Of a stretch of DNA of 64,000 nt, positions 3,632-51,000 are shown piece by piece. The first letter of the stretch is position 1, and each line of letters begins with the position of its first letter. The DNA comes from Mytilus galloprovincialis (lineage: Eukaryota > Mollusca > Bivalvia > Mytilida > Mytilidae). Below the pieces are notes generated by a model. That model searched no databases. It worked only from the letters and a program-made list of their open reading frames with translations, and was not told where the DNA came from. The translations under genes were made by a program, and so were the position numbers. The DNA lies in contig NC_134850.1 of assembly GCF_965363235.1 (NCBI RefSeq), forward strand, positions 40,048,602 to 40,112,601, written 5' to 3'.

Positions 3632-4312
3632 CTAATAAAGCCTCTTCCTTTGGCGTGGAGGAAGTGTCTTTCTGTCCCCACCTTTCTGTTGTGACTGTCC
3701 GCGAATGTTCCTCTCAGATCCACATCGTTGAGTCACAGAAGGAGGAGTTGGCATGTAGTTTAATACTTCAGGTCCCAAACCAAGCTGTGTATTGGGATGT
3801 GGAAATATATCCATTTGCTCCAGTTTAACAGTAGTTTTACGCTTATAATAGAATGGGCCATCTTCTTTTGGTACTGTTGGCATATGTGGTTGATCTTCAC
3901 GTTGTACGGTTGGTGGCTGTGGCATAAAAGCATGTCTCACCCCACGTGGGCCAGGTGGTGGGCGTGGCATATGCATGCGCTCTTCATTACGTGACATAGA
4001 TGGTGGGCGTGGCATATATGCATGTTCTTGTCCTTCTCCACATGACATAGGTAGTGGACGTGGTACCAGAGCCCCTTTAATGTGTGGTTCTGGTGATGAA
4101 GAAAGATGAGTTCCCTCTCCATGTGGCATAGTTGGTGGTCCAGCGTATAATGGACTAGTTCTACGTGATGGTGGCATAGTTGGTGGTCCAGCGTGTAAAG
4201 GACTAGCTCTTCGTGATGGTGGCATAGGTATGTTCAATGGGCTGTCATTTCGGTTATATGATATAACACTGAGTTCAGATGGTGATAATATTCTCTCAGT
4301 TGATACATGGTC
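3632..4312 (-). CDS. Proline-rich protein gene, terminal coding exon 3
   Basis: Acceptor TTTTTTTAG directly before 4312. Encodes residues 154-379 (start DHVSTERILSPSE) with the Met-Pro-Arg repeats and the basic tail, ending at the stop 3634-3632. The repeats are imperfect, as in a slowly expanding disordered region. Confidence 0.75.
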   Translation of the reverse strand, partial: DHVSTERILSPSELSVISYNRNDSPLNIPMPPSRRASPLHAGPPTMPPSRRTSPLYAGPPTMPHGEGTHLSSSPEPHIKGALVPRPLPMSCGEGQEHAYMPRPPSMSRNEERMHMPRPPPGPRGVRHAFMPQPPTVQREDQPHMPTVPKEDGPFYYKRKTTVKLEQMDIFPHPNTQLGLGPEVLNYMPTPPSVTQRCGSERNIRGQSQQKGGDRKTLPPRQRKRLY

Positions 4313-5227
4313 CTAAAAAAAGCAATTTGTTTATTCGTTTTAGTTATACTTGTCATTTCCATTGGATTCGGGGGAGAAACTTCATTTTTTGCAAACCATG
4401 AAATTTTAAATCGGATTTAAAATTAACCAACCAACTAATGATTAGAATATGTTAAATAAAAAAAATATTGAATTAAATTGTCTAGTATTTCACGTACCTC
4501 TCTGTGCATTCTAGTGCAAGGTCTGTTATCTAAATCATCCTCAAGCTTAACTATTTCCTTTGGAACTACTTTTATTTGGAGCTGGTGCCTAGCAGCAATT
4601 TTAATTTTATCTTCAACATCAGGAAAGTGGAAACCAGGCTTCATCTGGTATATATCCAAGTAGGAGGTGCCATCAGTTATAGGCTTAGGCTCTGGTGCAT
4701 ATGGGTTTACACCTCTCACTAAAACAATAAAGATGTACAGTTTAGAAAAACATAATACATAGACTGGTTAACATATTTTGAACACGGTAAGGTATACGGT
4801 ATCTATTTGGTTTGAATTCGTAAACACCAGCACTTCCTTACATGCTAGTTTTTTGTTGTTCCATGATTCATAGTTGTCTCATTAACAACCATACCAAGTT
4901 TCCTCTTTAAAACTGCTTCTTCAACAGATTTACCTCCTCCCAGTGCTCTTTAAAAAGACTTTGGTCCGTTCCTTTTTTAATGTACTTACTTTTAGTATTA
5001 CCAGTATTGGCATCTGGTAATTTTGGCAAGAAATTGTTGAGGTTTACATCAATGAGGTTAGCTGGCTTTCCATTTTTGTTACGTGGCATCACTCTGTTTA
5101 CAGGATATTCCACTTTCTGTCCACCGAGTCCATTTCTAATAGCTCCACGGTTAAGAAGATGGCGCTGTGGCTTTTTATCTGTCTTCTGTACATTGACATA
5201 CACCGGCGGCTTGTTAGGCTTGGTCAT
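3632..5227 (-). CDS. Unrecognised basic proline-rich protein, 379 aa, three coding exons
   Basis: Join 5227-4990, 4718-4498, 4312-3632 (238, 221 and 681 bp; total 1140 bp, 379 residues plus stop). Introns of 271 and 185 bp start GTAAGT and GTACGT, end in AG after a T-rich run, and keep the frame. Residues 1-80 are basic and polar. Residues 81-153 contain YAPEPKPITDGTSYLDIYQ and look globular. From about 183 to 300 the protein is Pro/Met/Arg-rich with repeats such as MPPSRRASPLHAGPPT / MPPSRRTSPLYAGPPT and MPRPPSM / MPRPPPG. The C-terminus is strongly basic (PPRQRKRLY). No signal peptide or membrane segment is visible. I do not recognise the family; the composition suggests an intrinsically disordered scaffold or nucleic-acid-associated protein, which is inference only. 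The exon structure is well supported and the function is unknown. Confidence 0.75.
4498..4718 (-). CDS. Proline-rich protein gene, coding exon 2
   Basis: Acceptor TTATTGTTTTAG at 4719-4730; the split codon A|TG gives Met80. Encodes residues 80-153, the least disordered part of the protein (YLDIYQMKPGFHFPDVEDK, then a basic stretch). Donor GTACGT begins at 4497, phase 0. Confidence 0.75.
4990..5227 (-). CDS. Proline-rich protein gene, coding exon 1
   Basis: Starts at ATG 5227-5225 and encodes residues 1-79 plus one base (phase 1), starting MTKPNKPPVYVNVQKT. CTTTATTTCTGTAG sits immediately before the ATG, a good splice acceptor, so the transcript probably has an upstream 5' UTR exon that I could not place. 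Donor GTAAGT begins at 4989. Confidence 0.75.
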
Positions 5228-14259: not shown

Positions 14260-14517
14260 TGCTCTCTTTCTATCTCTCTCTCCCTCTTTCTCTTTCTTTC
14301 GTTCTTTTCTCTTTCTTCTAACTTTCCATCTAGCTCTTTCTCTTTTTTCCTTTTCTTTCTTTAGAGAGTGTGAGTGAGTGGGTGAGAGGGACAGGGTGAG
14401 AGAGAGAGAGAGAGAGTGAGAGAGAGAGAGTGAGAGAGTGAGAGAGAGAGAGAGAGAGAGAGTGAGAGAGTGAGAGAGAGAGAGAGAGTGAGAGAGTGAG
14501 AGAGAGAGAGAGAGTGA

Positions 14518-14561
<44 letters not shown>

Positions 14562-14833
14562 GAGAGTGAGAGAGAGAGAGTGAGAGAGAGAGAGAGAGAG
14601 AGATGTGAGAAAGAGAGAATGTGTGAGAGTGAGAGAGACAAGGTGTGAGAGTGTGAGTGAGAGAGACAAGGTGTGAGAGTGTGAGTGAGAGAGACTGTGT
14701 GAGTGAAAGAATGTGTGTGCGAGAGAATGTGTGTACGAGAGAGAGAATGTGTGTGTGTGTGACAGAGAATGTGTGTGAGAGAGAATGTGTGTGTGTGTGT
14801 GTGAGAGAGACAATGTGAGAGGGTGTGTGTGCG

Positions 14834-14874
<41 letters not shown>

Positions 14875-15050
14875 ATGTGTGTGTGTGTGAGAGAGACAGA
14901 GTAGAGACAGAGTGAGTGTGAGAATGAGAGAGAGACCATGAGAGTGAGTGAGTGAGAAAGTGAATGTGCAATAGTAGAGAGTGACTGTGAGAAACTGAAT
15001 GCACGAAAGGGAGTGAAAAAATGATTGCGCGAAAGTGAGAAAGACGAAAT
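14260..15050. repeat. CT tract followed by long GA/GT microsatellite
   Basis: Positions 14260-14357 are pyrimidine-rich (CTCTTTCT type). 14358-15050 is (GA)n broken by GT, grading into (GT)n-rich segments around 14700-14900. The three long Ser/Leu/His open frames on the minus strand only reflect the dinucleotide repeat. Confidence 0.95.
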
Positions 15051-21179: not shown

Positions 21180-21770
21180 TGTAAATATATATATAAAATT
21201 GTAAATGTCATCAAAGTGGTGGAAATAATGAAAAAAAACAATTTTTATACACAAATCCAGTGTCTTGTGAAATTAAATCATGTGATGGGTACAATTTTTC
21301 TCTAAAGATGGACAAGTTTATAAACTGTAGCCACGGACAGGGGTCTGTCTGTATATTGAAGAATATTAAAATGACCGACAGCTATAATACTGTTTTTAAT
21401 TGTAAATTGCATCACAGTTGGTGAAAATATGAAAAATACAACTTGTGTACACATATCCAGTATGCCATAGCAATGTTATTCAGGTTATTGGTACATTTAT
21501 TCTCTAAAGATTGACAAGCTTATAATCTGTAGCCATTTACAGGGGTCTCTTTAAAAATTGAATAAAATGAACAAGGCCAACACCTAAAATACTGATTTTT
21601 AGTGGTAAATTGCATCAAAGTGGTTGAAAATATGAAAAAAAACAACCTATATACACAAATCCAGTATGTCATAGGAAAGTAATGCATGTGCTGGGTACAA
21701 TAATTCTCTGAAGATGGAAAAGTCTATAAAGTGTAAACAGACAGGGGTCTGTCTTGATATTGAAGCAAAA
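21180..21770. repeat. ~205-bp satellite, left half (three units)
   Basis: Units recur every 201-202 bp (GTAAATGTCATCAAAG at 21201, GTAAATTGCATC at 21402 and 21604). Shared words are CATCAAAGTGG, ACAGGGGTCTGTC and TGATATTGAAGCAAAA. The third unit is much closer to the units at 30678-31310 than the first two are. The array stops within a unit at 21770, where the 8.9-kb segment begins. Confidence 0.85.
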
Positions 21771-21787
21771 GGGGCAGTCCCGATGTT

Positions 21788-21975
21788 CCGACACCCCGTT
21801 AGTCCGACACCCCATTGGTCCGACACCCCACTAGTCCGACACCCCGTTAGTCCGACACCCCACTGGTCCGACACCCCATTGGTCCGACACCCCACTAGTC
21901 CGACACCCCGTTAGTCCGACACCCCACTAGTCCGACACCTCATTGGTCTGACACACTAATAGTCCGATAATACAA
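21788..21975. repeat. 16-bp iterated subterminal array, left
   Basis: About eleven units CCGACACCCC plus a six-base tail that alternates GTTAGT, ATTGGT, ACTAGT and ACTGGT. The last two units decay toward CCGATAATACAATTAATCCC. The frames VSPTPHWSD (plus) and GLTGCRTSGVSDQW (minus) only reflect the 16-bp period. Confidence 0.9.
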
Positions 21976-22914
21976 TTAATCCCGACCAATAGTAGTAAGC
22001 TGATACACAGAAACTTTTTTATTTGTGAACCTAAGGTTAGACCAGTTTTTAGAGAGCAATCAGGGACACATCGATAGTACTATTATGTAAATGATTATCT
22101 TTACGAGGAACAACACAGGATAACTTGCATACCGAAACTGTGAACACACACTTTCCACATCAATTCACTTGTCAATTAACTCGCTATCCGAACGGAATTG
22201 CTTATCCCTCACCACTCAGTGGGCGAACTGGTGACAAAATATTACCTCCCCTGTAAACAGTGCGCTCTTCTGACTAGAGGTAATCGGTAAAGAAAAACGG
22301 ACGACGCTGTAATTGTTTAGCTTGTTAAAAATGAGCTAGCACAAACGAACTTAGATGTGTCAACATAATGTGAATATGATTACGAATCAGGTAAAATATT
22401 TATTGTTAAGTTTATCACCTCATTGTATCATCATATGATAGGTAAATGCGTGAATTTTTGATTTTCAGTGTCGTTAGGGTTCAAACTTGTAATCATGCCA
22501 TCCTTTTATTATTTTTTTTAAATACTATCCAATGGTCGGAACACCTTGATTTTCTCCTAATTTGTAAAGTTGATTATGTTGCATGATATATATTTTTATC
22601 GGTGGAAAAAATTGATATGCAGCAAAGATTGGCAGTTTTTAATTTGTGTTGCTATGTGAAATAAAGGGAAGTAAATTAAAGTAAAAGAAGGCGCGCTTTT
22701 TCAAATAGTAAACAATTTAATTCAGATGCATAGTATTTTGTCAAATGATAAAGAATATCCTAGAAACTTGCTAGAAATTCATCTAATTTATAAAAGATAT
22801 ACAACATGACATACTGAAATCTGAAAAGGGGTAAAACCACCATACCTTGAACAAATTCAGTAAAAAAAAAAAAAGGGGGGGGGTTTATATATATATTTAT
22901 ATAATAGATTTTAT
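21976..22914. other. Left interior of the 8.9-kb element, no gene seen
   Basis: Sequence not repeated elsewhere in the window, possibly belonging to the element proper. A T/A-rich run and GGGGGGG lie at 22862-22884. Confidence 0.4.
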
Positions 22915-23465
22915 TTATTTGTTGTCGACAGCCAAAAGATGATTTGACATGCAACTAACTACTTTTTCAATTTCCTTGTAAAGTAAAATTGGCTTTTTTG
23001 GGGGTCTCTGTTCATTGTGGTCTAATATTTTCAGGTTCTCTTTGGATTGCCAAATAATATTATAATCATCTAATTGAATGTTCAAATTATTTTGCAGCGA
23101 TGGTCTGTATGGAAGGAAGACTGTCATAAACCCCAACAGTTCCGGATGGCCCTTTTAACTAATTGCTTAACATCAATAGCGATGTAAGATTCAAGTGTTT
23201 GATTTAGCACAAGTTTAGCCAGGTTTTCCTTGTAATTGTGGCAGAAAAAACACTAGACAGTGTCTGGCATTGAAAGGATATCAAACGGATGTTTTATGGA
23301 ATGATTCTCGTACATATGGCAATCATATGCATAGGAATGTGGAGCTAGTCTCTTTCATGCAGCAATTTTTAATTTCCAATATAAACTCCGAAAAGACGAG
23401 AGCATAGAAATGTATACATTCTTTGTGAATAAAATCATTCCAAAACATAATTGTGTCATTAGTGT
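22915..23465 (-). pseudogene. Decayed protein-coding-looking segment, unidentified
   Basis: The minus strand reads as protein-like sequence in more than one frame. A 73-residue stretch at 23136-22915 includes RPSLQNNLNIQLDDYNIIW and PKKPILLYKEIEKVVSCMSN. Further protein-like stretches lie between about 23140 and 23465, interrupted more than once. Amino-acid composition is far less biased than in neighbouring spurious frames. I do not recognise the family. It may be a remnant of the element's own gene or a captured host exon. Confidence 0.35.
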
Positions 23466-23928
23466 TGCATTATTTATCAGTAGAGATAATCAGATTCCAG
23501 TAATATTGCCCAACTGAAGGTTTTTGTTGGTAATGTTTTGTAAATCTTAGTTGTTTTGACAAGCTGGGCTGTGCAGGTTGCCCGGCTGCCCCTTTCAGTG
23601 TGAGACAATATTTTGTTTATTGTAAACAAAATCACTGATTCAAGACTGGACCGGGCCCCTTTTAGGCAGTTAGTGCGAACCCCTTAGGTTTCAACCATTA
23701 CATGCAATACGGGGGGAGGGGGAAGATTTTTTTTACCGAGTCAAACATTTTTCCTAATAATAATACATTGAGATTTAACATATACTTTGCTATATGTAGT
23801 GTTTATATTAAAGTATTGCCAACAAAATTCATTAAATTTGGGATCATAATATTGTTTAAGAAAAACCCTTACCCCCTCCCCTGTACATCATAAAATTGCA
23901 TAATCTTCTGTAACACATTATAAGAATT

Positions 23929-24071
23929 CGAAGGTTCATATCATTTACAATATCATTCAAAAATTTTCTGGGATTTTTTTTTTACTATCAACGTTGAACC
24001 TCGAGGTTACACACATTGTAGTAAAAAAAATCCAATAAAAACGTTGAATGTAAATGATATGCACCTTTAAA
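23929..24071. mobile_element. MITE with long inverted arms
   Basis: AAGGTTCATATCATTTACA at the left is the reverse complement of TGTAAATGATATGCACCTT at the right. The arms continue inward with a shared GGATTTTTTTT/AAAAAAAATCC, and ACGTTGAAC and its inverse lie near the centre. It is about 143 bp and has no coding capacity. Confidence 0.65.
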
Positions 24072-25014
24072 ATCTTATATTGTAGGACTCATGTTGTTCA
24101 AACATAATGTGTTGATCAATTATGTGATGATGATTTTGATAAAACTTCACATTAGGTAATCTTTCACGTATATTGATTACATTATATCGAGTTGTCCCAA
24201 CGATATACTTGTCGGTGTGCTCGATCATACGAATTTACCGACATTCATATAGACAAAATGACACAACTTTGAAAAATTCTTGTGACGAAACTACATTTCG
24301 GAACACGTTAAAAATTAGATACTCAGAAAGCTACATTATTAAGGTTTGATATATATTTTTTTCAAAAAAAAAGAAAAATATGCAGTCAAATCTGGCAGTG
24401 TTTTACACACCCCTATGTTGAACAATAGGTTGTTCAATTAACAGCATGTTTGGCAATAAAAAAAATCATATATTAACAAATTTAGCTTTAACATATACTT
24501 TATTTATAGTGGTTGTATAAAAGTTAGATAATGGTTTTGTGTTTTAAGAGATATTCATCCCTATGCATATCGGTTTTTATGCGTAAATTGTCTCTCCTGT
24601 TTTTAGACCTTTTCTGTCTCTTTCATAAGAAGAGTGACTTTTCTATTGTTCTAGTGTCACTGGAAATCCCACTGCACTCCTTTGCGGGAGATGCAAACAA
24701 CAATCTTTAACTTCAACTCATTTATTGGTAAATGATTTGATTCTATATTGTTGATTTAAGATATACATTCATTGGTTAGTTTGACCGAAACCGAAAACTG
24801 TGAGTTCTTTCCGTATTTATTTGATTGTTTATTGTTTGTACTATTATATAGATCTATTGTATTTGAAATAAAAGTGAACACAAATTCAATAATTTTGCGA
24901 CTTAGATCAAGGGGTACCCCTAGAGTAACTATATCAAAGGCAACACAAAAATCGGCCAATAAGTATATAAGAAAAAAGGACAATACAAATGTTCAAGTAA
25001 AACAATCCCTATAC
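24072..25014. other. No gene seen
   Basis: AT-rich interior of the 8.9-kb element. Overlapping frames on both strands at 24756-25026 have no recognised motif. Confidence 0.4.
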
Positions 25015-25160
25015 ATTTTTGTTTAGGGCCAACTGAAACACGCCTCCGGGTGCGGGAGTTTCTCGCTGCATTGAAGACCCATAAGTGGCCTTCAGCTGTT
25101 GTTTGTTCTTTGGTCTGATTGGTGTCTCTTTGACACATTCCCCATTTCCATGCTTAATTT
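25015..25160 (+). repeat. Dispersed repeat G, partial copy
   Basis: GTTTAGGGCCAACTGAAACAC, GCCTCCGGGTGCGGGAGTTTC and TTGACACATTCCCCATTTCCA match 10970-11100. The upstream reverse transcriptase part is absent. Confidence 0.75.
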
Positions 25161-25439
25161 GACTATTAAGAAAAATAAAAGTTGTTCAAAACAAAAACTC
25201 GCACTCACAACCTGAAATGTAACTAGGTGATCTTGAAGGATATAAACAACACTTCAAAGAAAAACTCATCAGAAGATCGTTATATTCTTACTTGTTACCG
25301 GTATTCGATTGTGCAAATGTAGTTTCACGGAACCAAGAAAAAAAAACACGTACACGTATATTATTACAAAAAGCATCTAGCTAGGCAAGGTATCAAAATA
25401 TCAGCAAAATAAATGCAGGTTCAAATATTGAAAGTAATG

Positions 25440-25740
25440 TTATGGCAGTTCTGTGTTTGTTTTTATACATCCGTCAAAATTTGACTGGACGTATTATGGT
25501 ATACAAATGTCCGTCTGTCCGTTTGTCCATCTGTCTGTCCAGCGTAAACATGTCGCATCGTAACTTGAGAACGAATCATCCAAATTTCATGAAACGTATC
25601 ATAGTTGTTTCTTATTGTGGTCAAACGATCTGTATACTTTTTGATGACAATAAGATTAAAACCTTTTGAGTTACGGGACTTTATAACTAAAACAGGGGTG
25701 TAATTTTTTGCACCACATGTCGCGCCGTTTCTCAAAAGCC
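25440..25740. repeat. Repeat with GTCCGTCTGTCCGTTTGTCC microsatellite
   Basis: CATCCGTCAAAATTTGACTGG is an imperfect hairpin (CAAAATTTG centre). A short (GTCCGTCT)n run and ATCCAAATTTCATGAAACG follow, a layout like the 5' part of pearl-like elements read in reverse. No second copy was found in the window. Confidence 0.4.
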
Positions 25741-25904
25741 ATTTATGATTATTGCTTAAAACTTAATATACTTCTTAGTTTTATTAATCTAAAGATCTCT
25801 ATACTTTTTGGTTTTGATTCAAAATTGTATTTAGAGATATTGATTTTTTTTTATATATAAAAAAAAAATGAGGGGGGGAGGGTAGAGTTATTATTTTTTT
25901 TTAT

Positions 25905-26863
25905 AAAATGTTTTGGTGATGGTGATGTGTTCGTAGATCTTACTTTACTGAATATTCTTGTTATTACAATCTTCTATAATATCTCTAATAAACTTGGCCC
26001 TTAAGTTACAGAGGAAAATCTTTTGTAAAACAAGAATGTGTCTTCAGTACACGAATGCCCCACTCGCACTATCATTTTCTATGTTCAGTGGACCGTGAAA
26101 TTGGGGTAAAATCTCTAATTTGGCACTAAAATTAGAAAGATCATATCATAGGGAACATGTGTACCAAGTTTGAAGTCGATTGGACTTCAACTTCATCAAA
26201 AACTTTAACCTGAAGCGGGACAGACGGACGAACGAACGAACGGACGAACGAACGAACGAACGGACGGACGAACGAACGGACGCACAGACCAGAAAACATA
26301 ATGCCCCTCTACTATCGTAGGTGGGGCATAAAAAATCAAATTTACCAAATTATTGAAAATTGTTAAAAATTGACTATAAAGGACAATATATTTGTGGAAC
26401 TTACATTGCTGAACATAATTGATGTTTACAGTTTATCGCTATCTTTAATAATATTCAAGATAACCAAAAACGGCAAAATTTCCTTAAAATTACCAATTCA
26501 GGGGCAGTAACCCAACAACCAGTTGTCCGATTTATCTGATAATTTCAGGGCAGATAGATCTTGACTTGATAAACAATTTTACCCCATGTCAGATTTGCTC
26601 TAAATGCTTTGGTTTCAGAGTTATAGGCCAAAATCTACATTTTACCCCTATGTTCTATTTTTAGCCATGACGCATCTTGGTGGGATGGCCGGGTCACTGG
26701 ACACATTTTTTAAACTAGATTCCCCAATGATGATTGTGGCCAAGTTTGGTTAAATTTGGCCCCGTAGTTTCAGAGGAGAAGATTTTTGTAAAAGATAACG
26801 ACGGACGACGGACGCCAAGTGATGAGAAAAGCTCACTTGGCCCTGTGGGCCAGGTGAGCTAAA
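25905..26863. repeat. Pearl-like element C, copy 1, carrying element B inside
   Basis: TTTTGGTGATGGTGATGTG and GTAGATCTTACTTTACTGAA match 31360-31400. The core resumes at 26334 with AAATTGACTATAAAGGACAA, TTTGCTCTAAATGCTTTGGTT and GATGATTGTGGCCAAGTTTGG. It ends in a (GAC)-rich microsatellite, AAGTGATGAGAAAAGCTCAC and the hairpin GCTCACTTGGCCC...GGGCCAGGTGAGC followed by TAAAA near 26863. Positions 26031-26331 are a nested insertion. Confidence 0.75.
26031..26331. repeat. Pearl-like element B, nested in element C
   Basis: The head CAAGAATGTGTCTTCAGTAC leads to ATGCCCCAC at about 26055, and the inverse GTGGGGCAT closes the element at about 26321-26329. A single core lies between, then a GACGGACGAACGAACGG microsatellite at about 26220-26285. 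The 3' hairpin has stems ATGCCCC/GGGGCAT and CTAC/GTAG and is followed by AAAAA. The flanking C-element core is interrupted exactly at these borders. Confidence 0.75.
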
Positions 26864-26939
26864 AAATGGGGGTTCTCACATGTCACGCCATATGTATGAA
26901 ACTATAATTCATGATTATTGCATAAAAATTCACACACAA

Positions 26940-26995
26940 GACAACGCGGACGTATCATGCGCTCATGGCGCAGCTGTTCATTAAACAAGTATTGC
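26940..26995. repeat. Head fragment of repeat I, inverted
   Basis: CGTATCATGCGCTCATGGCG and CAGCTG with TTCATTAAACAAG are the reverse complement of the head of the element at 9740. Confidence 0.6.
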
Positions 26996-27052
26996 TGCGC
27001 ATATATCTTCATACGCTGACGTCATCGAATGCAACATGGAGTTCTTTATCGC

Positions 27053-27270
27053 TTCATATACCGTATACTGGGTTGTTTTTGCGGGGTGTGAATTTTCGCG
27101 GATAGAATAAAATCTCCAAATTAAATCCCGCAAGTGAACATGCAAAGGTATGATAAAAGTTATGAATCCGCCAAAATAATAACTTCCAAAATATTTCGCA
27201 TGTATACCTTATTCAATGAAAATCGTGAATTGTTACACCTACGAAAATAATCCGCTAAACGGTATATTAA
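27053..27270. mobile_element. MITE with TATACCGTATA-type ends
   Basis: ATATACCGTATACTGGGTTG and, at the other end, the inverse of ATATACCGTTTAGCGGATTA; the arms continue with TTTTGCGGGGTGTG against TTTTCGTAGGTG. It has the AATTTTCGCGG-type interior also typical of the CTGTGGATTC family elsewhere in the window. It is about 218 bp and non-coding. Confidence 0.55.
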
Positions 27271-27324
27271 TATAACCAATGAAATTTCAAGATATTTGTT
27301 TTATTAGAACATACTCACCCCTTC

Positions 27325-27422
27325 TCGTCCAATGAAAAGTCAGTTTTTTGCCCTCTAATTTTCATAGTACATGGTTTTCCATGCACTATGAAATGCTATA
27401 CATGAATGACTTTTCATTGTCA
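27325..27422. repeat. Imperfect hairpin, ~95 bp
   Basis: CCAATGAAAAGTCA pairs with TGACTTTTCATTG, and inside TTTCATAGTACATGG pairs with CCATGCACTATGAAA around a four-base centre. It may be a small fold-back element. Confidence 0.55.
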
Positions 27423-28060
27423 GTTAATTATGAAAGTGAACTCTTAATAGCTGCACTAACGAAGTGTACAATCCCCTAAGACATTTTCCTTGGGAAAATA
27501 GCCTACTGATTAGAAACGAAAGAGCAAAGATTAAAATAAAAATATTTTGAATTTTGCAAAATTTCATGCATTTTTTAATGGTACACATATATAGAATACA
27601 CAAAAAAATAATAAGGATAAATATAAAAAAAACCATTGCCAGACTGCTGATATATAGCAAAGGATTGTTTTCGGAGAAACACACTACATTTAAATTTATC
27701 AATAAAAAGTAAACATATAATGTTGTATGGTCTGAATTCAAATATTCATACAGAGAGTTTCATATTTATAAAAAAAAATCAAATTTCAAAAAGGGGATTT
27801 ATATAACATTGTGTTGCTTTTTATAATAAAAAAAATCTAAAGATATATGCTATAAGTATTAAATTTTACCTGAAGCAGAAGAAAAACAATTTATCCATCA
27901 CAAACTATGTCAGTGCTATTTCATTTCATCCATTGAAATTACCATTACCTATGTATTATATTTAGTTCATTATAAAAAGTGAACTCTTATTTAGGTTTGA
28001 ATATTACAATGGGAAAGGATAGTTTTGTAAGGTCACTCGAAAGTGTGAATATGTTCTAAA
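27423..28060. other. No gene seen
   Basis: AT-rich interior of the 8.9-kb element. The 105-residue hydrophobic minus-strand frame at 27741-27424 has no recognised motif, and its composition follows base content. Confidence 0.4.
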
Positions 28061-28066
28061 TTGGTC

Positions 28067-28156
28067 AGACAATACTTGGTCATGTTTTATGAAGATTTAA
28101 GCCCTCGGCTTCGCCTTGGGCTTAAATCTTCATAAAACATGACCAAGTATTGTCTA
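28067..28156. repeat. Near-perfect 90-bp inverted repeat (hairpin)
   Basis: AGACAATACTTGGTCATGTT at the left and AACATGACCAAGTATTGTCT at the right begin arms of about 38 bp with no mismatch seen. They meet at GCCCTCGGCTTCGCCTTGGGC, itself nearly palindromic. The lack of decay suggests a young element or continued homogenisation. Confidence 0.85.
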
Positions 28157-28164
28157 ACCTATAA

Positions 28165-28245
28165 ATAAAATTGAGATTGGGAATGGGGAATATGTCAAAG
28201 AGACAATAACCCAACCAGAGAGCATACAACATTTCTTTGTCAAAA
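28165..28245 (-). repeat. Dispersed repeat G, partial copy
   Basis: ATTGGGAATGGGGAATATGTC, AAAGAGACAATAACCCAACC and CAGAGAGCATACAACA match the end of the G family (7855-7920, 48850-48910). Confidence 0.7.
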
Positions 28246-28687
28246 TGTCCAAACGTCTTGAGAAATATATATCAGTAAAAATCATGCATATCAGTCATAT
28301 CATAGTCATGATAATATAACGCATAATAGCGTTTGCAGGTACATGTACCTAGATACATGGGTCGTCTTATTGGCCATAATGCAAGCGAATGCATTACAAG
28401 AATTGTATGCATGCTCCTTATTTGCATAATATTACGGACGTACATTGTACTTAGCTTACATACAGGCATTTTCCTTTTGAAAACTATCATCAGTTGTGTT
28501 TATACCTCGTACTTTATAACATACATAGACAATATATACTGTCATTTCGTGACTATACATAATTTAACTAGATGCTCTCAAGAGCATGTGTCGGTCACCT
28601 GCATTTACTGATGCTTAGATAATCATGTAAAATAAGGTTAAAATCATAATTAATAGTATACAGTTATTTAATATGTACATGTAACTA

Positions 28688-28952
28688 TGCAATAGATCAA
28701 AATATATTTCCCGAGGTATGAAGATCAGCTCATTGTTCTATTGCCCTCAGCCGAAGATCAGGTCATTGTTCTATTGCCCTCAGCCGAAGATCAGCTCATT
28801 GTTCTATTGCCCTCAGCCGAAGATCAGCTCATTGTTCTATTGCCCTCAGCCGAAGATCAGCTCATTGTTCTATTGCCCTCAGCCAACGGCTGAGGGCAAT
28901 AGAACAATGAGCTGATCGTCATACCGAGGGAAAGATATTTTGATCTATTGCA
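28688..28952. mobile_element. Fold-back element with a 33-bp minisatellite in one arm
   Basis: TGCAATAGATCAAAATAT at 28688 is the inverse of ATATTTTGATCTATTGCA ending at 28952. The arms extend through CCCGAGGTATGA and GATCAGCTCATTGTTCTATT to GGCTGAGGGC (about 65 bp). In the left arm the 33-bp unit GAAGATCAGCTCATTG...CCCTCAGCC is repeated five times; the right arm has one. 33 is a multiple of three, so a KISSLFYCPQP frame stays open, but it is not a gene. Confidence 0.85.
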
Positions 28953-29269
28953 CTGTTACACATTCAATAACTGTTTTATTACCTAATACATACTGAGTAC
29001 CTAATAAATACATAAAAACATTTAAAAGACCCAATTTGATTGGACAACATGAATACCTTTCTACTAATCAGATTTCAGAATAAGAGGTCATAACAGGTCA
29101 GTGCTATAGACTGCACACAGGTGCAATAGAACGATAATTTCCAGTGCAATAGACCATGGAACAAAAAATGGCAGAAAAATAGCAAATAATATAGAAATAT
29201 TAATAAAACAGTAAAATACTCTTTATTAGATAAAAATATTAAATATTAGATATTGATATAATGATAAAA

Positions 29270-29697
29270 AAAAACCGGCAAAACGGTAAAATTACAAACT
29301 CAGGGGCAGCAACCTAACAACGGGTTGTCGGATTCGTCTGAAAATGTCAGGGCAGATAAATCTAAATTCAATAAACATTTTTGCCACCTGTCAGATTTGC
29401 TCTAAATGCTTTAGTTTCATAGATATAAGCCAAAAACTGCATTTTATCCCTATGTTCTATGTTTAGCCATGTCGGCCATATAGCCATGCATGTTGGTTGG
29501 CAGGCGTGGTCATCGATCGGACACATGTTTTAAACTAGATACCCTAGTGATGATTGTGGCCAAGTTTGGTTAAAATTGGGCCATTAGATTCAGAGAAGAA
29601 AGTTTTTGTTAAAGTTAACAGACGACGACGAAGACGGACGACAAACGCCAAGTGATGAGAAAAGCTTATTTGACCTTTCAAGTCAGATTGGCTAAAA
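29270..29697. repeat. Pearl-like element C, copy 2 (one core unit)
   Basis: GGCAAAACGGTAAAATTAC, AATTTGCTCTAAATGCTTTAG, GATGATTGTGGCCAAGTTTGG, then GACGACGAAGACGGACGACA and AAGTGATGAGAAAAGCTTATT. The terminal hairpin is more decayed than in other copies. It lies inside the 8.9-kb element. Confidence 0.75.
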
Positions 29698-29999
29698 CTG
29701 TACCTATATATTAGCATATGAAAGTCATATTACACGGAGTTTAATGAACAGCGTGATTATCATTGAATATAATTAAGGAGTAGTTGATAACATAAATAGA
29801 ATAATTTGAAGTAAAAGAAATCAGAAGATAGTACTGTAACAAAATCGACGTTCCTGAATTAAAGATTTTGCTAATTTTCAGGTAGGCTTCAACAAGTGGA
29901 TATATGAAACACCTTTTAGGAATTTATAAGTTAACTGCGATTGTCGATTCCCTAAAATTGTGTGATGACGTTGTTTTAATCGTGCCGATATATCTATAA

Positions 30000-30340
30000 A
30001 AAATAAGATGTGGTATGATTGCAAATGAAACATCTCTTTACACCATGACACAGAAATTTACAACTATAGGTCATCGTACCGTCTTCAACAATGAGCAAAG
30101 CCCATACCGCATAGTCAGTTTTAAAAGGCCCCGAATTGACAATGTAAAATTACAATTCAAACGAGAAAACTAACGGACTTATCTATATATAAAAAAAAAT
30201 AACGAAAAACGAATAGGTAACACATAAACAAATGACAACCACTGCATTCCAGGCTCCTGACAGGCACATACATACATAATATGGCGGGATTAAAAATATA
30301 GTGAAATCCCAACCCTCCCCCTGACCTGGGACAGTGGTAC
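30000..30340. repeat. Dispersed repeat H, longest copy
   Basis: AAGATGTGGTATGATTGCAAA, CAACTATAGGTCATCGTACC, CTTCAACAATGAGCAAAGCCC, AAAGGCCCCGAATTGACAATG, CTCCTGACAGGCACATAC and ATATGGCGGGATT. The last part is the inverse of the retroelement tail near 10810-10880. Confidence 0.75.
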
Positions 30341-30580
30341 AAATGTATAGTAGTACAACATAAGAACGAACTATACAAATAAGTTGAAAATGGCTTTACT
30401 CATCAAATGGACAAAAATACAAGTGGACGTGGCCGGGTACTTGTACATCCCAACAAGAAATGGACACTAGGAACAGATTTGTTAGCATGTTTTTGAGTGT
30501 ACTAATGCAGTTTGCAATTACGTTTTTCAGTATTTCAAGCATTTGCATAGTTATATATAATGTCATAATCTATGTTAAAA

Positions 30581-30650
30581 GTGTCGGACTAACGGGGTGT
30601 CGGACTAGTGGGGTGTCGGATTAATACGGTGTCGGACTATTGGGGTGTCG
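30581..30650. repeat. 16-bp iterated subterminal array, right (inverted)
   Basis: GTGTCGGACTAACGGG, GTGTCGGACTAGTGGG, a variant with ATTAATAC, and GTGTCGGACTATTGGG. These are about four units, the inverse of the array at 21788-21975, ending just inside the right terminus at 30668. Confidence 0.9.
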
Positions 30651-30677
30651 GAATATCGGGGCGACCCCGAAGCAAAA

Positions 30678-31315
30678 CACCATGGCCGACAGCTATAATA
30701 CTGATTTTTTTATTGTAAATTGCATCAAAGTGGTTGAAAATATGAAAAAAAACAACCTATATACAGTCAAATCCAGTATGTCATAGGAAAGTAATGCATG
30801 TGCTGGGTACAATAATTCTCTAAAGGTGGAAAAGTTTATAAAGTGTAAACAGACAGGGGTCGTCTGTCTTGATATTGAAGCAAAAAAAAAACATGGCCGA
30901 CAGCTATAATACTGATTTTTAATTGTAAATTGCATCAAAGTGGTTGAAAATATGAAAAAAACAACCTATATATACCAATCCAGTATGTCATAGGAAAGTA
31001 ATGCATGTGCTGGGTACAATAATTCTCTTAAGACGGAAAAGTTTATAAAGTGTAAACAGACAGGGGTCTGTCTTGATATTGAAGCAAAAAAAAAAAACAT
31101 GGCCGACAGCTATAATACTGATTTTTAATTGTAAATTGCATCAAAGTGGTTGAAAATATGAAAAAAACAACCTATATATACCAATCCAGTATGTCATAGG
31201 AAAGTAATGCATGTGCTGGGTACAATAATTCTCTGAAGACGGAAAAGTTTATAAAGTGTAAACAGACAGGGGTCTGTCTTGATATTGAAGCAAAAAAAAA
31301 CATGGCCGACATGTG
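30678..31315. repeat. ~205-bp satellite, right half
   Basis: Three units and a partial one (GTAAATTGCATCAAAG at 30715, 30925 and 31130; spacing 210 and 205), very similar to each other and to the last unit left of the insertion. Unit length varies mainly in the A-run after GAAGC. The 81-residue minus-strand frame is a satellite artefact. Confidence 0.9.
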
Positions 31316-44851: not shown

Positions 44852-45090
44852 TCATGCATATAATGGAATCTTTTTAGTAATAGGTTTACGACACATATGA
44901 CATGTTCGTAATGAATCCCCACAGATATTACACACAGTGTGTCCACATAAAAATGCCATGTTGCGTTTCCGTTCCATACAAATAGAACAAAGAAAGTTCT
45001 CCTCCATTTCTTGGAGTTTCTTCTGCAGTAAGTTTGACTCCATGACTCCAGCAGCAGGGTGTTCTCTAGTCGCTGTTACTTCTGAACCAT
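44852..45090 (-). CDS. MIB2: MIB2 exon 17: C-terminal RING finger and stop
   Basis: Residues 844-922. A helix [14 protein letters not shown] leads to the RING with C878, C881, C892, H894, C897, C900, C907 and C910 ([31 protein letters not shown]). The last RING is the catalytic E2-binding one in the family. The stop is at 44854-44852. Confidence 0.97.
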
Positions 45091-48000
45091 CTAAAAATAG
45101 ATATGACGAAATTTTTAAAAAATCTTGAAAACTAAATAGATTAGATGAATTTTTCTGTTGAAAAGTATTATATAAATTGATACAGATGAATAAGGAAGGG
45201 TAGTTTCCTGTTGCAATAAATGAAATTTGATCAACATTTTTTTACAGTATACTACTATTGGGTTTATTTACATATGTGTGTAGAAAAATTAATGACCCTT
45301 CTGCAATTTATCAGTAGAGAATTTGACGATAGTACATGATGTGCTAATATTGAGTTGGCAGCTCATCTTTTTTTTTGCACACGATGATGGGAGTTTTTAA
45401 CAACCTTTACTGGCTATACAGGCCTCGCACCATCTTTAAAAATATCTTTGCACACAGTTATTCATATCCCAATGCACATTCCATTCTGATCTAGTTTTGC
45501 TACATCAGTAATTTAAAATGTTTGTGTATAACAAGTGTTTGCAAGTCACACATTAGCTTCAATTGTTTATGGTTAGCTTTTGTAAAACATAACTTCAGAC
45601 ATACAACATGCTACATGGTTAGAATTCACATAAATATCTATTCTAAAACATACCTGGACAAGTTTTACTATCTATATTTTCTTTACATGATATACATTTT
45701 CTCATCTTCTGACAGCAGTCAAAACAGGTTATAACATGTCCACATGGTGAAAATTTGATACATGCCATGTTTTCTGAACACACCATACATTCTTGTACTA
45801 GAGATTCTTTCTCTGATGATGTTTGTGGGTCTGATTTACTGGCCCTGAAAAAAATACCTCAAATATACGAAAAATACTGGTGCATTTGTATACTGCCCTC
45901 GAAATCAATAACTCAATTGTAAAAAAAAAGTATCAATTGTTGAATTTGATCATCTCAAGTGTGAAATGAAATACTGTGCATTCATTTATTTTCGTGGGTA
46001 TCAATTTTCGTGGATAGAGAAAAAAAGACGTTTCGTGGTATACGTAAATTCGTGGATTGCTGATTACAACACCAAAAAATTAGATACGTAATTCGTGGAT
46101 TTCCTTTTGATTTAGGAGATCAAATAACCTCCTTGGTTTGATCAATAATAAAACAAAACAAAAAAGAAGGAATTCATTGAATTGTCAAAATCCTCGCTTG
46201 GTCATTCTAGGTTAAAGTGCTCATTGATAACTTCGATTACAATAATGGACAGAGACAACTAATTAATTGTTTGTTTTACAATTTATAAATTCTTGTCTGA
46301 ATTCTTTAAGGCATTCAAAACTTTATGATTGAAAGCTCATTTCCCTAATCACGATATAATAAACAGTGATATAAGTATAAGGTGTGAAAAAAAAAGGTTC
46401 CTGTCATAAACAATATTACCTACGGGCAATATCTCCGTACTTAATCCTATTGATTTTTAATCACTGGTAAACCAAACTATGACACAGTAATTAACAACTT
46501 GCAGTTTTAATCAATTTTAAAAAGTATATTATCACTGATATTCGATAAATTTATTATAGATTTAATCAAATACTTGTATCATCTTTCAATAAAAAACACG
46601 TGTTATGTTACAATGTTTATCGCTAGTCAACACTATACTAGAACTGCCTAACATAACCGGAAATAAACATCCGACTCTCTACACATTTCTCGGGATTATT
46701 CTTCGTTGAATTCTTAAATTTGTGGTTCGCTGTGACCCACGAAACCCACGAAAATTGGTATACCACGAATAAAAATGAATCCACAGTACTAGAACTTGAA
46801 GGTAAAATATATAAGAAGTTGTATGACAGTTTTGATGGTAATTATAAGCAAGAAGACCTGATTATTTTTGCTGTCAAATTTTCTCTATCTATAGGTGTTT
46901 TCAAAATAAAAGACAAAACTTTTATTTTACCCTCAATGTTCTATTTTCACCTATATTCCTTGGCATGCAGAATCACCAGACAAAATTTTCAAACTTAATA
47001 CTCCATTCATGATTGTGTCCATGTTTAGGTTCAAAATTGGTCTAGCAGTTTCATAGAAGATTTTGTAAAAGTTAACAGAGAACTGATATAATAGCTCACT
47101 TGACCCTTCTATATCTTTATGTAATGTAAAAGTCATGAACAACTTTTTACAAAAAAATTATGAAATATCTATTATGAATATATTATCATCACTTACATTT
47201 ATTCGACTTAAAAATCCCTTTCTTATAATTATGAAAGTTTGGATTAATTTGGCCTAGAAGTTTCAGAGAAGATTTTTGTAAAAGTTTACAGAGGGAATCA
47301 AACACAAAGTGATGAGAAAGCTAACTTAGCCTTTCAGGCAAGGTCAGCTAAAAAAATATCTCCCATTTGGACCCCTTGCTGTTTGAAAACAAGTATGAAC
47401 TGCAACATATTTTGATATTATTCTGAAATTTGTGTGTCCCTGTATACTTACTGTGCTGTAGTAAACTGTTTGATCATTTCTTCTACCTTAGGATCACCAC
47501 AAACTTCTAGTGGGGTTTTACCCTGGTTGTTTTTATGCGTAAGACTGGCACCTTGTTGGGCAAGATAACAAGCAATAGCAGCACCCATCTGATCTTCATC
47601 GTCTGCCATCCCAAGCTGATTACATATCTGTTGAAACAAAACAGTACATATCTATAGAAACAAGACAAAATAGTACATATCTATAGAAACAAGACAAAAT
47701 AAGACAAAAATAGTGGTCTTCATTACAGTCTTATACATGTTGTCACAATGTAAACATAACTTGTATAATATGGGAGCAACTATACATGTTGACTTTAGTT
47801 TTTGTATCATTAAGTTGCTGTTACAGACATTTCCCTTACTTATACCCTGAATCAAGTTCTGATTCATAGACTTTTTTCATACAAATTTGCTGTTTGTCTT
47901 GCATCTGAGAGCGACACAAAAAAACCAAAAAGATGAAGTGGATAAATCCAACAAGTTTTCATAGTTTGTTCTTTGATGAGCTAATTTATCACTGTCCCAG

Positions 48001-51000
48001 GTAAGGGGAGGTTTGAGCTCCCACAAATATGTTTAACCTGGCAAAATTTTGTATGTACCTGTCCCAAATCAGGGAACTGTAAATCAGTTGTTGTTATTTA
48101 AAGCTAAAATCATTTTTTCTATTGGTATGTAATAAATCAGGTCTTACTTTTCCCATTTAAATTGTTTTTTTCTCATTTGTCACTTCAGTGCCTTTTATAC
48201 TTGCTATATATGCAGTAAGGGTTTTGCTTATTGTTGAATGCTGAACTGTTATTACTACAACCATACCACATCATCTGATTCTTATACAAAATCTAAGTAA
48301 ACCCTAGGGGCAATCAAACAAAGATTTGTATCATCTTTATATTGAACAACTTACAGCTTCTAACATTGGTGTTGGCTCTCTCTCCTGAGGTACAGACTGT
48401 CTCATGAGAGCTACATGTAAACATGTGTCTCCATCCTCATCTTTGACATTTATATCAGCACCTCTGGTTACAAGTAGTTCAATGATAGAAGTATGACCTT
48501 GGGATACAGCCAGTAGTAGGGGTGTTTGTTGTCTGTTGTTTCTGATCTCAATATCAGCTTGGCCCTTGAAAATAAACAACAATAAATTCATTTGTTCAAA
48601 TTGTATGTCAGTATATCTATGTGAATTTGAATTCTCTGTTTGTATATGTCTAACTAAATTCTGTAGTGTGTAACTTTCTTTAAATCTTAATCTTAAGCCA
48701 TTATGTACATCTAAATTTGTCGCTGTGTTTTTTTTCCCACTCTATTTACAAATGTCAACCTAAAAATAATGCCATGATGTCCATTTATGTTCAATGCTTG
48801 TATGTCCATTGAAATTCTATGGTAGTATGGTTATTCATGAATTATATAATTGAGAATGGAAATGGGGAATGTGCCAAAGAGACAACAACCCGACCATAGA
48901 GCAGACAACAGCAGAAGGTCACCAACAGGTCTTCAATGCAACAAGAAATTCATTTGCCATTTTCTACAGTAGAATTTGTTTTCCATGATCTATGTTTGTA
49001 TGGCTTTTCATGTTCTATGGAAGGTTATTACCTATGCTTGTATGTTTTTTCCTGTTTTATTGTAGTACTGTGAATTCATTTATTTTTGTGGGTACCAATT
49101 TTCGTGGATTGAAGAAATATTGTATTTTCATAAATTTTTACCAAAGTCTTCATACTAGACTAACAAGAATTTGTACTTCGTTGAACATTTAAATTTGTGG
49201 TTCACCTCAAACCATGAAATCCACAAAAATAAATAAATCCACAGTATGTTTTTTTCATGTTCTATGGTAGTATGTCTATACATGTTGTATGGTACTATGT
49301 CTATACATGTTGTATGGTACTATGTCTATGCATGTTGTATGGTACGATGTCTATGCATGTTTTATGGTACTATGTCTATGCATGTTGTATGGTACTATGT
49401 CTATACATGTTGTATGGTACTATGTCTATGCATGTTGTATGGTACTATGTCTATGCATGTTGTATGGTACTATGTCTATGCATGTTGTATGGTACTATGT
49501 CTATGCATGTTGTATGGTACTATGTCTATGCATGTTGTATGGTACTATGTCTATGCATGTTGTATGGTACTATGTCTATGCATGTTGTATGGTACTATGT
49601 CTATGCATGTTGTATGGTACTATGTCTATGCATGTTGTATGGTACTATGTCTATACATGTTCTATGGTACTATGTCTATACATGTTGTATGGTACTATGT
49701 CTATACATGTTGTATGGTTATGTTCTATGGTAGTCTGTAAATGGTCTATGCCATTAAGGTAGTATATTTATCAATGGCCTAAGGTAGTATGTCTGTTTGT
49801 AATATATGTTAAGCCCTGGTCTATGCTTGAATGTTTATTCATGTTTTATGTTAGCATGCTTACTTGAGTCAGCAGTACATTAGTGACATCCTTATGTCCA
49901 TTAAGACCAGCTAAATGTACAGCTGAGAATCCATCATCTTTTTTTATGTCTACAATCTGTCTACACTTCAATAATATCTTCTCTGTAGCACTGCATAAAT
50001 ATATTAACAATGTTATATTCACCTTTTTTGTTTGATCTTACAGTAAAAGAAAGGGAAAATATTTTATCATTTTTTTACTTTCAATTTAAAATAATCATTG
50101 TACCTATTGATATATTCATAACAAAAGTGTAAACTTGCTGTGGAGAAAATATACAATGTACTCTTTTTATTCTACTTTTAGAACCCTTAGTAAAAATGTG
50201 GTATAAAATAAGATCTATTTCAACTTGTAACTTTTATATGACTCAACTTAAATAAAACTCTAGGAAATAAAAGCAACAGTTGAAGTGAGACAGAGGTATA
50301 CATGTCTCTCTTAGAAGATAAATTATATATGCTATAAATTTCCTCTGTATGTGCAAAACAAAACATTAGAACTATAATATATAATATAACTTACAAGCTG
50401 TTTCCTTTAAGGGCAGCATGGTGAAGCACATTGAATCCTCTTTTATTCCGTAGTGTAAAGTCTATTCCATTATAGCAGACTAGCATATCAATAATCTGTC
50501 TGTTCTCTTTACCAATAGCATCATGGAGACATGTATCTCCATAGGAGTCCTGCAATTTTTATTTTTTTTTAATCTATTTTGATTAAAGTTTGTATGATAT
50601 CAATCATTGTCAATAGATATATTTACACTTGTATGCAAATTTCACACAGTTTCCTGTAAACTTTGACATCACAATTCAAAACATTTGACCTCAAACTCAA
50701 AAAGTGATTGTTTCTTGATGTCAGAAGGTTATTCAGAGTGGATATAAGGTCATTTGGAGACAAAATTCAGCTGAATACCAAAAGTGTAAATTTATTTATT
50801 CAAAGACACATTACAATCTATGAAAAAGTAACAGTTCAAATATAAAGCAATACAAGGGATCCTTAAAACAGAGTATTCCTTCATAACCCATCATAATTCT
50901 ACTGTCTTCTTGTGGACAAAAATATCATCTTTATCTTAACTCTTGAAGAAACACATTTCTGTGATTTTCTCACTGTTATAATCCTCAGTAATTTAGTCTG

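Follow-up and report, generated by a model that had tools for sequence, protein, structure and literature searches.

Target-site duplications of 8–11 bp are given for the Mutator-like (MULE) superfamily of DNA transposons (PMC6446971). Muta1, a MULE of Aedes aegypti, is described as a type-2 foldback element with a short terminal motif of 10 bp that is an imperfect palindrome, 12-bp subterminal tandem repeats lying 3–4 bp apart, duplications of 8 or 9 bp, and many non-autonomous derivatives, most of which have only their ends in common (PMC5225508). Tm1, a Mutator/Foldback family of root-knot nematodes (Meloidogyne), is reported to have composite ends with variable numbers of 13–15 bp repeats, outer ends that generally bear different motifs (A1/A2), and duplications of 8–10 bp in 45 of 53 cases; its non-autonomous groups coexist with elements carrying a putative transposase gene, whose 496-aa FLYWCH and MULE protein was assigned to the Phantom subclass (PMC3169594). 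Muta1 and Tm1 are the closest precedents for the family described here, whose L and R ends differ in motif as A1 and A2 of Tm1 do.

The window analysed is a 64,000-nt stretch of contig NC_134850.1 of the mussel Mytilus galloprovincialis. A segment of 8898 bp at positions 21771–30668 of this window (C13:40070372–40079269 in the genome) is very probably a foldback-type member of the MULE superfamily, a DNA transposon that moves by cut and paste and is itself non-autonomous.

Ends, insertion site and composite interior

MULEs have terminal inverted repeats that are often long. In the window element the outer 27 bp of the two ends match at 23 of 27 positions, in keeping with the few mismatches that an earlier note had read from the sequence alone, and the full inverted repeat extends to 88 nt with 89% complementarity. 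Both ends also run into the same 16-bp iteration, as that note had claimed, each consisting of a 15-bp terminal motif followed by the iterated units. The left (L-type) motif, GGGGCAGTCCCGATG, occupies 21771–21785 on the forward strand and leads into ten good units and then two degenerate ones (21786–21977, forward strand); a unit of this array comprises 12 conserved bases, GTCCGACACCCC, and a more variable 4-bp linker. The right array has four good units and one degenerate unit (30574–30653, reverse strand) and is closed by the R-type motif GGGGTCGCCCCGATA (30654–30668, reverse strand). At no more than one mismatch, GTCCGACACCCC occurs 13 times in the window, always within the two ends, where 0.03 occurrences are expected. 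Across the family, the commonest L-type motif is GGGGCAGCCCCGATG, the outer 11 bp of which, GGGG-CAG-CCCC, form an imperfect palindrome. The general plan is a terminal palindrome (GGGG-TCG-CCCC or GGGG-CAG-CCCC) and then 12-bp cores with 4-bp linkers, based on 132 scored units, a count that omits loci L001–L008 (repeats of other loci) and L015 and takes in units with at least 9/16 matches to the family unit. An imperfect palindromic terminal motif with subterminal tandem repeats is the arrangement of the Muta1-style type-2 foldback element. Single-strand folding of the termini was not better than that of shuffles, and the iteration pattern had 0 matches in viral contigs.

The element is flanked on both sides by the 9-bp sequence GAAGCAAAA (21762–21770 and 30669–30677, forward strand), and the boundaries and duplication proposed in the earlier note proved exact. 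Three further units of the interrupted ~205-bp array (left part 21197–21770, right part 30669–31311) also contain GAAGCAAAA, so that this duplication is weak evidence on its own. If the flanks are joined and a single GAAGCAAAA is retained, array spacings of 208, 204 and 206 bp result, the ordinary unit that excision had been predicted to leave. The description of the surroundings as a satellite array did not hold. The array sequence gave 158 matches; among those listed (about 150), it makes up short arrays scattered over roughly two dozen loci, as counted by eye. The host of the element is a short dispersed array, not a long satellite.

Comparison with shorter copies bears out the nested repeats that had been suspected in the interior, where core sequence alternates with segments that we read as nested insertions. 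The segment at 22218–24676 is missing in L017, L020 and L026/L027, in which its two borders meet, and is present in B14 and B19, the read copies closest to the window copy, interrupted there by further inserts of their own. It is followed by core common to other family copies at 82–93% (24677–25876), and then by a segment missing in L013, L014 and L015 and only partial in B14 and B19 (25877–26859). Core common to L013, L014, L015 and L017 (26860–27303) precedes a segment whose borders abut in these same four copies (27304–28163), and core common to these and L020 (28164–28659) precedes a 571-bp segment missing in all five (28660–29230). This last segment holds an inverted repeat of 74 nt as well as five tandem units of 33 bp, and we take it for a small inverted-repeat element nested in the larger one. 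The right-hand core reaches the right array (29231–30573); within it, 29943–30486 is missing in L013, L014 and L015 and kept in L017 and L020. Two further copies on this contig have most of the nested inserts in common with the window copy, mostly at 98–99% identity, and lie in different flanks, so the window copy was probably already composite when it moved. This suggests that elements of this foldback MULE type can move with several kilobases of nested insertions.

The interior was checked for transposase by listing its open frames and by a tblastn search in which four pieces of MULE protein served as queries. At E-values up to 1, the latter detected no transposase remnant in 20 window-family loci, and the sole match, of 15 residues in L020, lies just outside the L020 element. 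At this sensitivity, the earlier impression that the element has no recognisable transposase is supported.

A dispersed family with paired L and R ends

The ends define a real transposon family, of which the window segment is one copy. At no more than one mismatch, 61 R-type and 33 L-type termini were found (reversed-pattern controls: 0); at up to three mismatches there were 190 (105 + 85), against 3 (1 + 2) in the control. Under the stricter threshold, 27 of the 33 L ends have an inward-facing R partner no more than 35 kb away, and L/L and R/R pairs within that distance both number 0. Partners are lacking for 34 of the 61 R ends at the same threshold, so many ends stand alone. The earlier note had raised the prospect that the 16-bp arrays might be single and unpaired: the L ends speak for pairing, the R ends in part against it.

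Target-site duplications were tabulated for 29 pairs, namely the 27 L/R pairs and two copies with a more strongly mismatched left end, E1 and E2. They are exact in 18 pairs (8 bp in 10, 9 bp in 8), lengths that fall within the range of the MULE superfamily; three pairs have a 9-bp duplication with one mismatch, and eight, including B14 and B19, have none. When flanks were taken from different copies, 0 of 812 combinations matched exactly at 7 bp or more, and 3 of 812 matched with one mismatch at 8–10 bp. The genome search for inverted end pairs with flanking duplications that the earlier note had recommended therefore recovers a family, and the flanking GAAGCAAAA is not explained only by the array units, as other copies have their own, different 8–9 bp duplications. 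The copies include a short one of 3.7 kb (L013) and an L/R pair 32.7 kb apart that has a perfect 9-bp duplication. A further pair, at C5:94299, shows the duplication GACAAAAT (read by eye). Two more L/R-like pairs, at C11:41830275/41833194 and C12:28910265/28917642, lie outside the duplication table.

E1 and E2 are 11.7-kb copies, and the identity of the flanks shown for them makes a single segmental duplication probable. The long open frames in them resemble a nested LTR retrotransposon, which we take to be of the BEL/Pao type, and E1 and E2 were rejected as autonomous copies on this ground. The earlier note had missed that the ends extend over 88 nt, that they define a family with strict L/R pairing, that relatives bear a transposase, and that the host array is short and dispersed.

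Transposase-bearing relatives and alternative readings

A second family in the same genome, MULE-15, has the terminus GGGGTCGTCCCGATAGTCCGACA, which differs from the window-family R end at 2 of 23 positions; its members include C12:788711 and C9:30980552. At 9 of 9 sites, a MULE transposase exon is matched 1.9–4.0 kb from this terminus, the terminus being exact at eight and having one mismatch at the other; two of the nine transposase matches are fragmentary, and two sites look like one segmental duplication. The distance check covered 21 transposase places and was repeated with 140 MULE matches. Four further MULE relatives, at C10:27850184, C5:52760176, C11:71256212 and C9:48524209, show 61–68% identity in the transposase exon. 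A 328-aa piece of MULE-15 scored over the Pfam cut-off for MULE, without FLYWCH. The MULE-15 element at C12:788711 is ~22 kb long, sits within one end of a window-family copy and has the 8-bp duplication ATTCCGAC (by eye). Its far end has diverged from the near end in the terminal motif, so that its two ends match each other less well than the near end matches the window-family R end. The enclosing 27.8-kb pair (C12:788689–816474) seemed autonomous because of the MULE domain inside it, and was rejected as a giant autonomous copy, since that domain belongs to this separate element, which lies 22 bp inside the R end with a duplication of its own.

A complete-looking relative at C11:60434.9–60440.3 kb has 16-bp GTCCGAC iterations at both ends, the 8-bp sequence GACCTATA on both sides (duplication read by eye) and an open frame of 507 aa in which FLYWCH (8.6e-11) and MULE (6.1e-10) domains are recognised. 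The Pfam scan, run on this relative rather than on the window copy, gave these two domains only and reported no PHD finger. FLYWCH together with MULE is the domain pair of Phantom-subclass transposases in Mutator; the C11 relative has it, whereas the MULE-15 piece showed MULE alone and the window copy encodes neither. MULE-15 and the C11 element resemble the window family in their GGGG-starting ends and GTCCGAC-based iterations of 15 or 16 bp, and have 8-bp duplications at the two copies examined. Unlike the window family, they carry MULE transposase sequence; the period of MULE-15 is 15 bp, and its interior has only repeat-like segments in common with the window family. Comparison of the 61 R and 33 L ends with the 140 MULE matches listed revealed no transposase-bearing copy with exact window-family ends. 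Among these ends, only two, both R, come within 15 kb of one of those matches, in each case because another MULE sits there. The MULE searches scored 150 of 324 and 150 of 302 candidates, so a transposase-bearing window-family copy could have been missed.

hAT elements have 8-bp target-site duplications and are also known with iterated subterminal motifs, and 10 of the 18 exact duplications found here are of that length. The other eight, that of the window copy included, are 9 bp long, which conflicts with a fixed 8-bp hAT duplication, and the near-identical terminus stands beside a MULE transposase match at every one of its nine sites; a non-autonomous hAT element with subterminal repeats, mobilised by a hAT transposase, is accordingly very unlikely. 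Of the two superfamilies put forward in the earlier note, the Mutator-like one is thus supported and hAT is not, because the duplications come in two lengths, as in Muta1, and the transposase at the near-identical terminus is a Pfam MULE. Helitrons and Helentrons have neither target-site duplications nor long inverted ends, and were set aside in view of the duplications and 88-nt inverted ends of the window family. Merlin elements, whose transposase is an IS1016-type DDE enzyme, have 8–9 bp duplications and GG-starting ends, and would fit the window family in these last two respects. The inverted ends of Galileo are long and internally repetitive (PMC3573991), and Rehavkus is described with 9-bp duplications and a minisatellite ahead of its 3′ inverted repeat (PMC6446971). 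That one of these superfamilies (Merlin, Rehavkus or a P/Galileo-type foldback) had arrived at such iterated ends by convergence is highly improbable, given the Pfam MULE transposase tied to the near-identical terminus and the FLYWCH and MULE domains of the C11 relative, in which the PHD finger that would place it in Rehavkus was not reported.

The GAAGCAAAA copies in neighbouring array units could make the window duplication a coincidence, and the segment a rearrangement of array units that trapped inverted GTCCGACA arrays by chance. The probability of this is close to nil, as other inverted pairs lie in other flanks with exact 8–9 bp duplications of their own, against none among the 812 mismatched flanks. 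A different history for a genuine transposon is that the window copy is the remnant of a once autonomous large element, its transposase gene overwritten by nested insertions, instead of belonging to a long-standing non-autonomous lineage. The interior does consist mostly of nested segments. However, shorter copies without those segments, such as L013, also lack a transposase match, and their common core has no long open frames, which makes it probable that the lineage was already non-autonomous when the insertions arrived, and we regard the overwritten remnant as unlikely.

Proposed mobilisation and place among known foldback elements

For the non-autonomous MULE, a MULE transposase encoded elsewhere in the genome would bind the terminal motif and the iterated cores, and would pair one L-type with one R-type end. 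The segment would then be excised and inserted at a staggered cut, the repair of which would leave the 8- or 9-bp duplication. The identity of the mobilising transposase, its binding to the iterations and current activity are inferred. The related families have the GTCCGAC core in their iterated ends in common and differ in spacing, the rest of the unit and terminal motif, and therefore offer a natural test of what the FLYWCH/MULE transposase recognises; the strict L-with-R pairing (27 versus 0) is likewise a test of end asymmetry. A wider reading is tentative and somewhat doubtful: the GTCCGAC iterations, with a period of 15 or 16 bp, may be a code common to one foldback-MULE lineage, a transposase-less branch of which tolerates nested growth and still moves, a ~9-kb composite having moved whole to several sites on one contig. 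The iterated ends might then be a shared recognition code read only L-with-R, and a single MULE enzyme could use it to move several families that differ greatly in size.

No description of the window family was found in the literature searched, including a search with the iterated motif string, whose two hits were irrelevant. It is a new family within the known Mutator/foldback group and not unprecedented; it enlarges that group, has in its own genome a relative that looks complete and carries a transposase, and leaves the general picture of transposition unchanged. Muta1, likened to it here by description, is an insect element of 3198 bp with a predicted 504-aa transposase, whereas the window copy is 8.9 kb long with none found (PMC5225508). 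Tm1, as described, has another repeat (CGATTCAGTATCCGC) and other terminal motifs than the window family, and the element sizes seen are about 1.1 and 2.5 kb (PMC3169594). The Tetris foldback of Drosophila virilis is similarly non-autonomous, with tandem repeats within inverted ends, 8–10 bp duplications and a Mutator assignment made by inference; it differs in its repeat units of about 220 bp, and its account reports that a partner transposase was not found (PMC4079207). Rehavkus resembles the window family in its duplications of 9 bp and in having a minisatellite close to one end, and differs in the PHD finger of its transposase, the C11 relative having FLYWCH (PMC6446971).

Ends and insertion site of the 8898-bp element

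The element occupies 21771–30668 of the window, with both borders lying where the earlier note had placed them. Its outermost 27 bp agree in inverted orientation at 23 of 27 positions, and the inverted repeat proved to be longer than those 27 bp, extending over 88 nt with 89% complementarity. As had been described, both ends run into 16-bp iterations, each array being preceded by a 15-bp terminal motif; the left end contains ten good and two degenerate units, and the right end four good units and one degenerate unit. At ≤1 mismatch, the 64-kb window contains 13 occurrences of the 12-mer GTCCGACACCCC, all within the two ends, against 0.03 expected from shuffles. The 9-mer GAAGCAAAA is located directly before the left end and directly after the right end. 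The concern that it might simply be array-unit sequence was a fair one, as the 9-mer is also found in three more units of the surrounding array. When the flanks are joined with a single GAAGCAAAA, the array is restored with spacings of 208, 204, and 206 bp, as a clean insertion would predict.

The interrupted ~205-bp repeat had been described as a satellite array; it is not a long satellite here, and forms short arrays at dispersed loci. The unit has 158 matches in the genome, and roughly two dozen dispersed loci were counted by eye among the matches listed. Several of these arrays open with a common degenerate partial unit and stop at a common position in the unit (about 192). Such shared borders suggest that the array is carried by another mobile element. 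Arrays carried within Helentrons are named in the title of an oyster study (PMC7492417). Elsewhere in the window, minus-strand exons at 44852–60723 resemble a Mind-bomb-type E3 ubiquitin ligase gene, with Pfam matches to a MIB_HERC2 domain (60418–60723; 6e-18), ankyrin repeats (48340–48741), and a RING finger (44852–45238), the RING exon lying about 14 kb from the element. Two further minus-strand open frames at 3632–5227, of 226 and 106 aa, are possibly exons of a gene; the first contains a tandem duplication of 48 bp, and neither has a Pfam match at E ≤0.01. A long GA/GT-rich simple-repeat tract (14363–14957) and a 25-bp minisatellite of 18.5 copies with 97% matching (49256–49718) are also present.

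A dispersed family with asymmetric ends

The 1.385-Gb genome, in which the window corresponds to C13:40048602–40112601, was searched for related ends. An iteration 25-mer gave 151 forward and 160 reverse matches (reversed control, 0), while the right terminus GGGGTCGCCCCGATATTCCGACA and the left terminus GGGGCAGCCCCGATGTTCCGACA gave 61 and 33 matches, respectively, at ≤1 mismatch (control, 0 for each). A combined terminus pattern allowing ≤3 mismatches returned 190 matches versus 3 in the control. Inverted pairing, the check proposed in the earlier note, was recovered: at ≤1 mismatch and within 35 kb, 27 of the 33 L ends form an inward-facing pair with an R end, at distances of 1.9 to 32.7 kb, and neither R/R nor L/L pairs were found among the same ends. 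At this stringency, 34 of the 61 R ends and 6 of the 33 L ends are partnerless. Four copies on C13 (14.55, 20.17, 21.05, and 40.07 Mb), namely the window copy, the two closest copies read, and a fourth pair, have the same R-end unit variant, and this clustering on one contig may reflect local transposition. The variant is, however, also present in the stretch read of a C6 pair (102743422).

Unit composition was profiled from 132 iteration units at 54 distinct ends (68 found), after those matching at fewer than 9 of 16 positions had been dropped. Positions 2–12 hardly vary (120 to 132 of 132), positions 13, 14, and 16 are more variable, and position 15 is intermediate; the unit is therefore described as a 12-bp core, GTCCGACACCCC, followed by a linker of 4 bp. 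At position 1, 80 units have G and 50 have T, the T marking the outermost unit in the ends looked at. The most frequent termini are GGGGTCGCCCCGATA and GGGGCAGCCCCGATG, a frequency arising partly by construction, as the search patterns contain that motif. An imperfect palindrome (GGGG-NNG-CCCC) makes up the outer 11 bp of each. As single strands the termini fold no better than shuffles, so the palindrome is read as a sequence feature rather than a demonstrated hairpin.

Flanks were scripted for 29 pairs, comprising the 27 L/R pairs and two with more mismatched left ends (E1 and E2). Exact duplications flank 18 of the 29, of 8 bp in ten and 9 bp in eight, and in three others (C11:58939270, E1, and E2) the duplication is of 9 bp and contains one mismatch. 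The identical flanks of E1 and E2 probably reflect one segmental duplication. No duplication was found in the remaining eight (C8:76285912, C11:50480184, C11:38657096, C62, B14, B19, A28, and L020), of which A28 has flanks with imperfect, 9-of-11 similarity. When left flanks were compared with right flanks of different copies, 0 of 812 comparisons matched exactly at ≥7 bp and 3 of 812 matched at 8–10 bp with ≤1 mismatch. By eye, a further pair at C5:94299 has GACAAAAT at both sides. At the right end of copy L014, the terminal CCCC and first two duplication bases seem by eye to have been lost between two CTG triplets, in what would resemble a deletion between short repeats; 7 bp (TTTTTTC) are left and match the left flank.

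The core of the window copy recurs at L013, L014, L015, L017, L020, and L026/L027 (73–93% identity, mostly 82–93%). Relative to shorter copies, the window copy has extra segments at about 22218–24676, 25877–26859, 27304–28163, and 28660–29230. Since the borders of each abut in at least three other copies, all four are read from sequence as putative nested insertions, in keeping with the nested-repeat interior noticed earlier. The 571-bp segment at 28660–29230, which contains 74-nt inverted arms and a tandem run of five 33-bp units (98% matches), is missing from five other family copies and looks like a small independent inverted-repeat element. Most of the core and extra segments are also held by B14 (C13:21.05 Mb, 14.6 kb) and B19 (C13:14.55 Mb, 19.0 kb), at 98–99% identity over most shared segments, 94% along one long stretch in each, and 91–93% where the alignment bridges gaps. 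Their flanks differ from those of the window copy. The composite therefore probably existed before the three copies separated. The lack of target duplications at B14 and B19 weakens the case for each as a simple insertion.

Transposase-bearing relatives and known elements

No recognisable transposase had been noted in the interior. Four MULE (Mutator-like element) protein pieces, searched against 20 window-family loci at E ≤1, gave a single match, of 15 residues in L020 and just outside its element, which is taken as chance. The genome has at least 140 matches to the Pfam MULE domain (PF10551), as counted from 150 scored candidates out of 324. Just two of the window-family ends (61 R, 33 L) have such a match within 15 kb, and both are R ends on C12. 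At C12:788711 to about 810800, a ~22-kb copy of a second family, MULE-15, has inserted into a window-family copy 22 bp inward of the R terminus; an 8-bp duplication, ATTCCGAC, and nested reverse-transcriptase-like open frames within the insert were recognised by eye. The second C12 locus has the same flank and looks like a segmental duplicate. MULE-15 has 15-bp iterated ends (such as GTCCGACACTCAATA) and a terminus, GGGGTCGTCCCGATAGTCCGACA, that agrees with the window-family R end at all but 2 of 23 positions; at its far end on C12 the terminal motif has diverged. Eight exact sites for this terminus and one with one mismatch (C12:180735) all lie 1.9–4.0 kb from a match to the MULE-15 transposase exon (9/9, two of these matches being fragments), and two other one-mismatch sites (C5:101075109 and C8:81526668) are window-family R ends. 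These results support the Mutator-like affinity, one of the two suggested previously. A third element (C11:60434.9–60440.3 kb) has inverted 16-bp GTCCGAC iterations, a 507-aa open frame containing both a FLYWCH and a MULE domain, GGGG ends, and GACCTATA flanking both by eye, and looks complete. A fourth (C7:87343–87352 kb) has 16-bp TCCGACA(G/A)CCCATTA-like iterations on either side of a MULE exon. The window family is nearest to MULE-15 in terminus and to the C7 element in iteration. On the simplest reading, a transposase of this MULE group would move the window family in trans.

The analysis confirms the inverted-end element and supports the earlier interpretation of it. The best interpretation is a non-autonomous MULE of the foldback type, representing a new family within a known kind of element. 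The literature searched contains no description of these ends, and the family may be catalogued in repeat databases such as Repbase. A bivalve survey reports MULEs in all mollusc genomes analysed there, with 39 curated MULE elements, and the word "foldback" does not occur in its main text (PMC10294476). Over 300 putative non-autonomous derivatives, 171 with perfect duplications, are described for Muta1 of Aedes aegypti, as is transposition in yeast (PMC5225508). The value of the present case lies in several related families in one genome with a common iteration core and strict end asymmetry, together with at least one complete-looking transposase-bearing relative. In root-knot nematodes, Tm1 has 13–15 bp iterations and outer-end motifs that generally differ from each other; duplications of 8–10 bp were recorded for 45 of 53 elements, and its FLYWCH/MULE protein of 496 aa was assigned to the Phantom subclass (PMC3169594). 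The L/R asymmetry of the window family is the counterpart of its A1/A2 ends.
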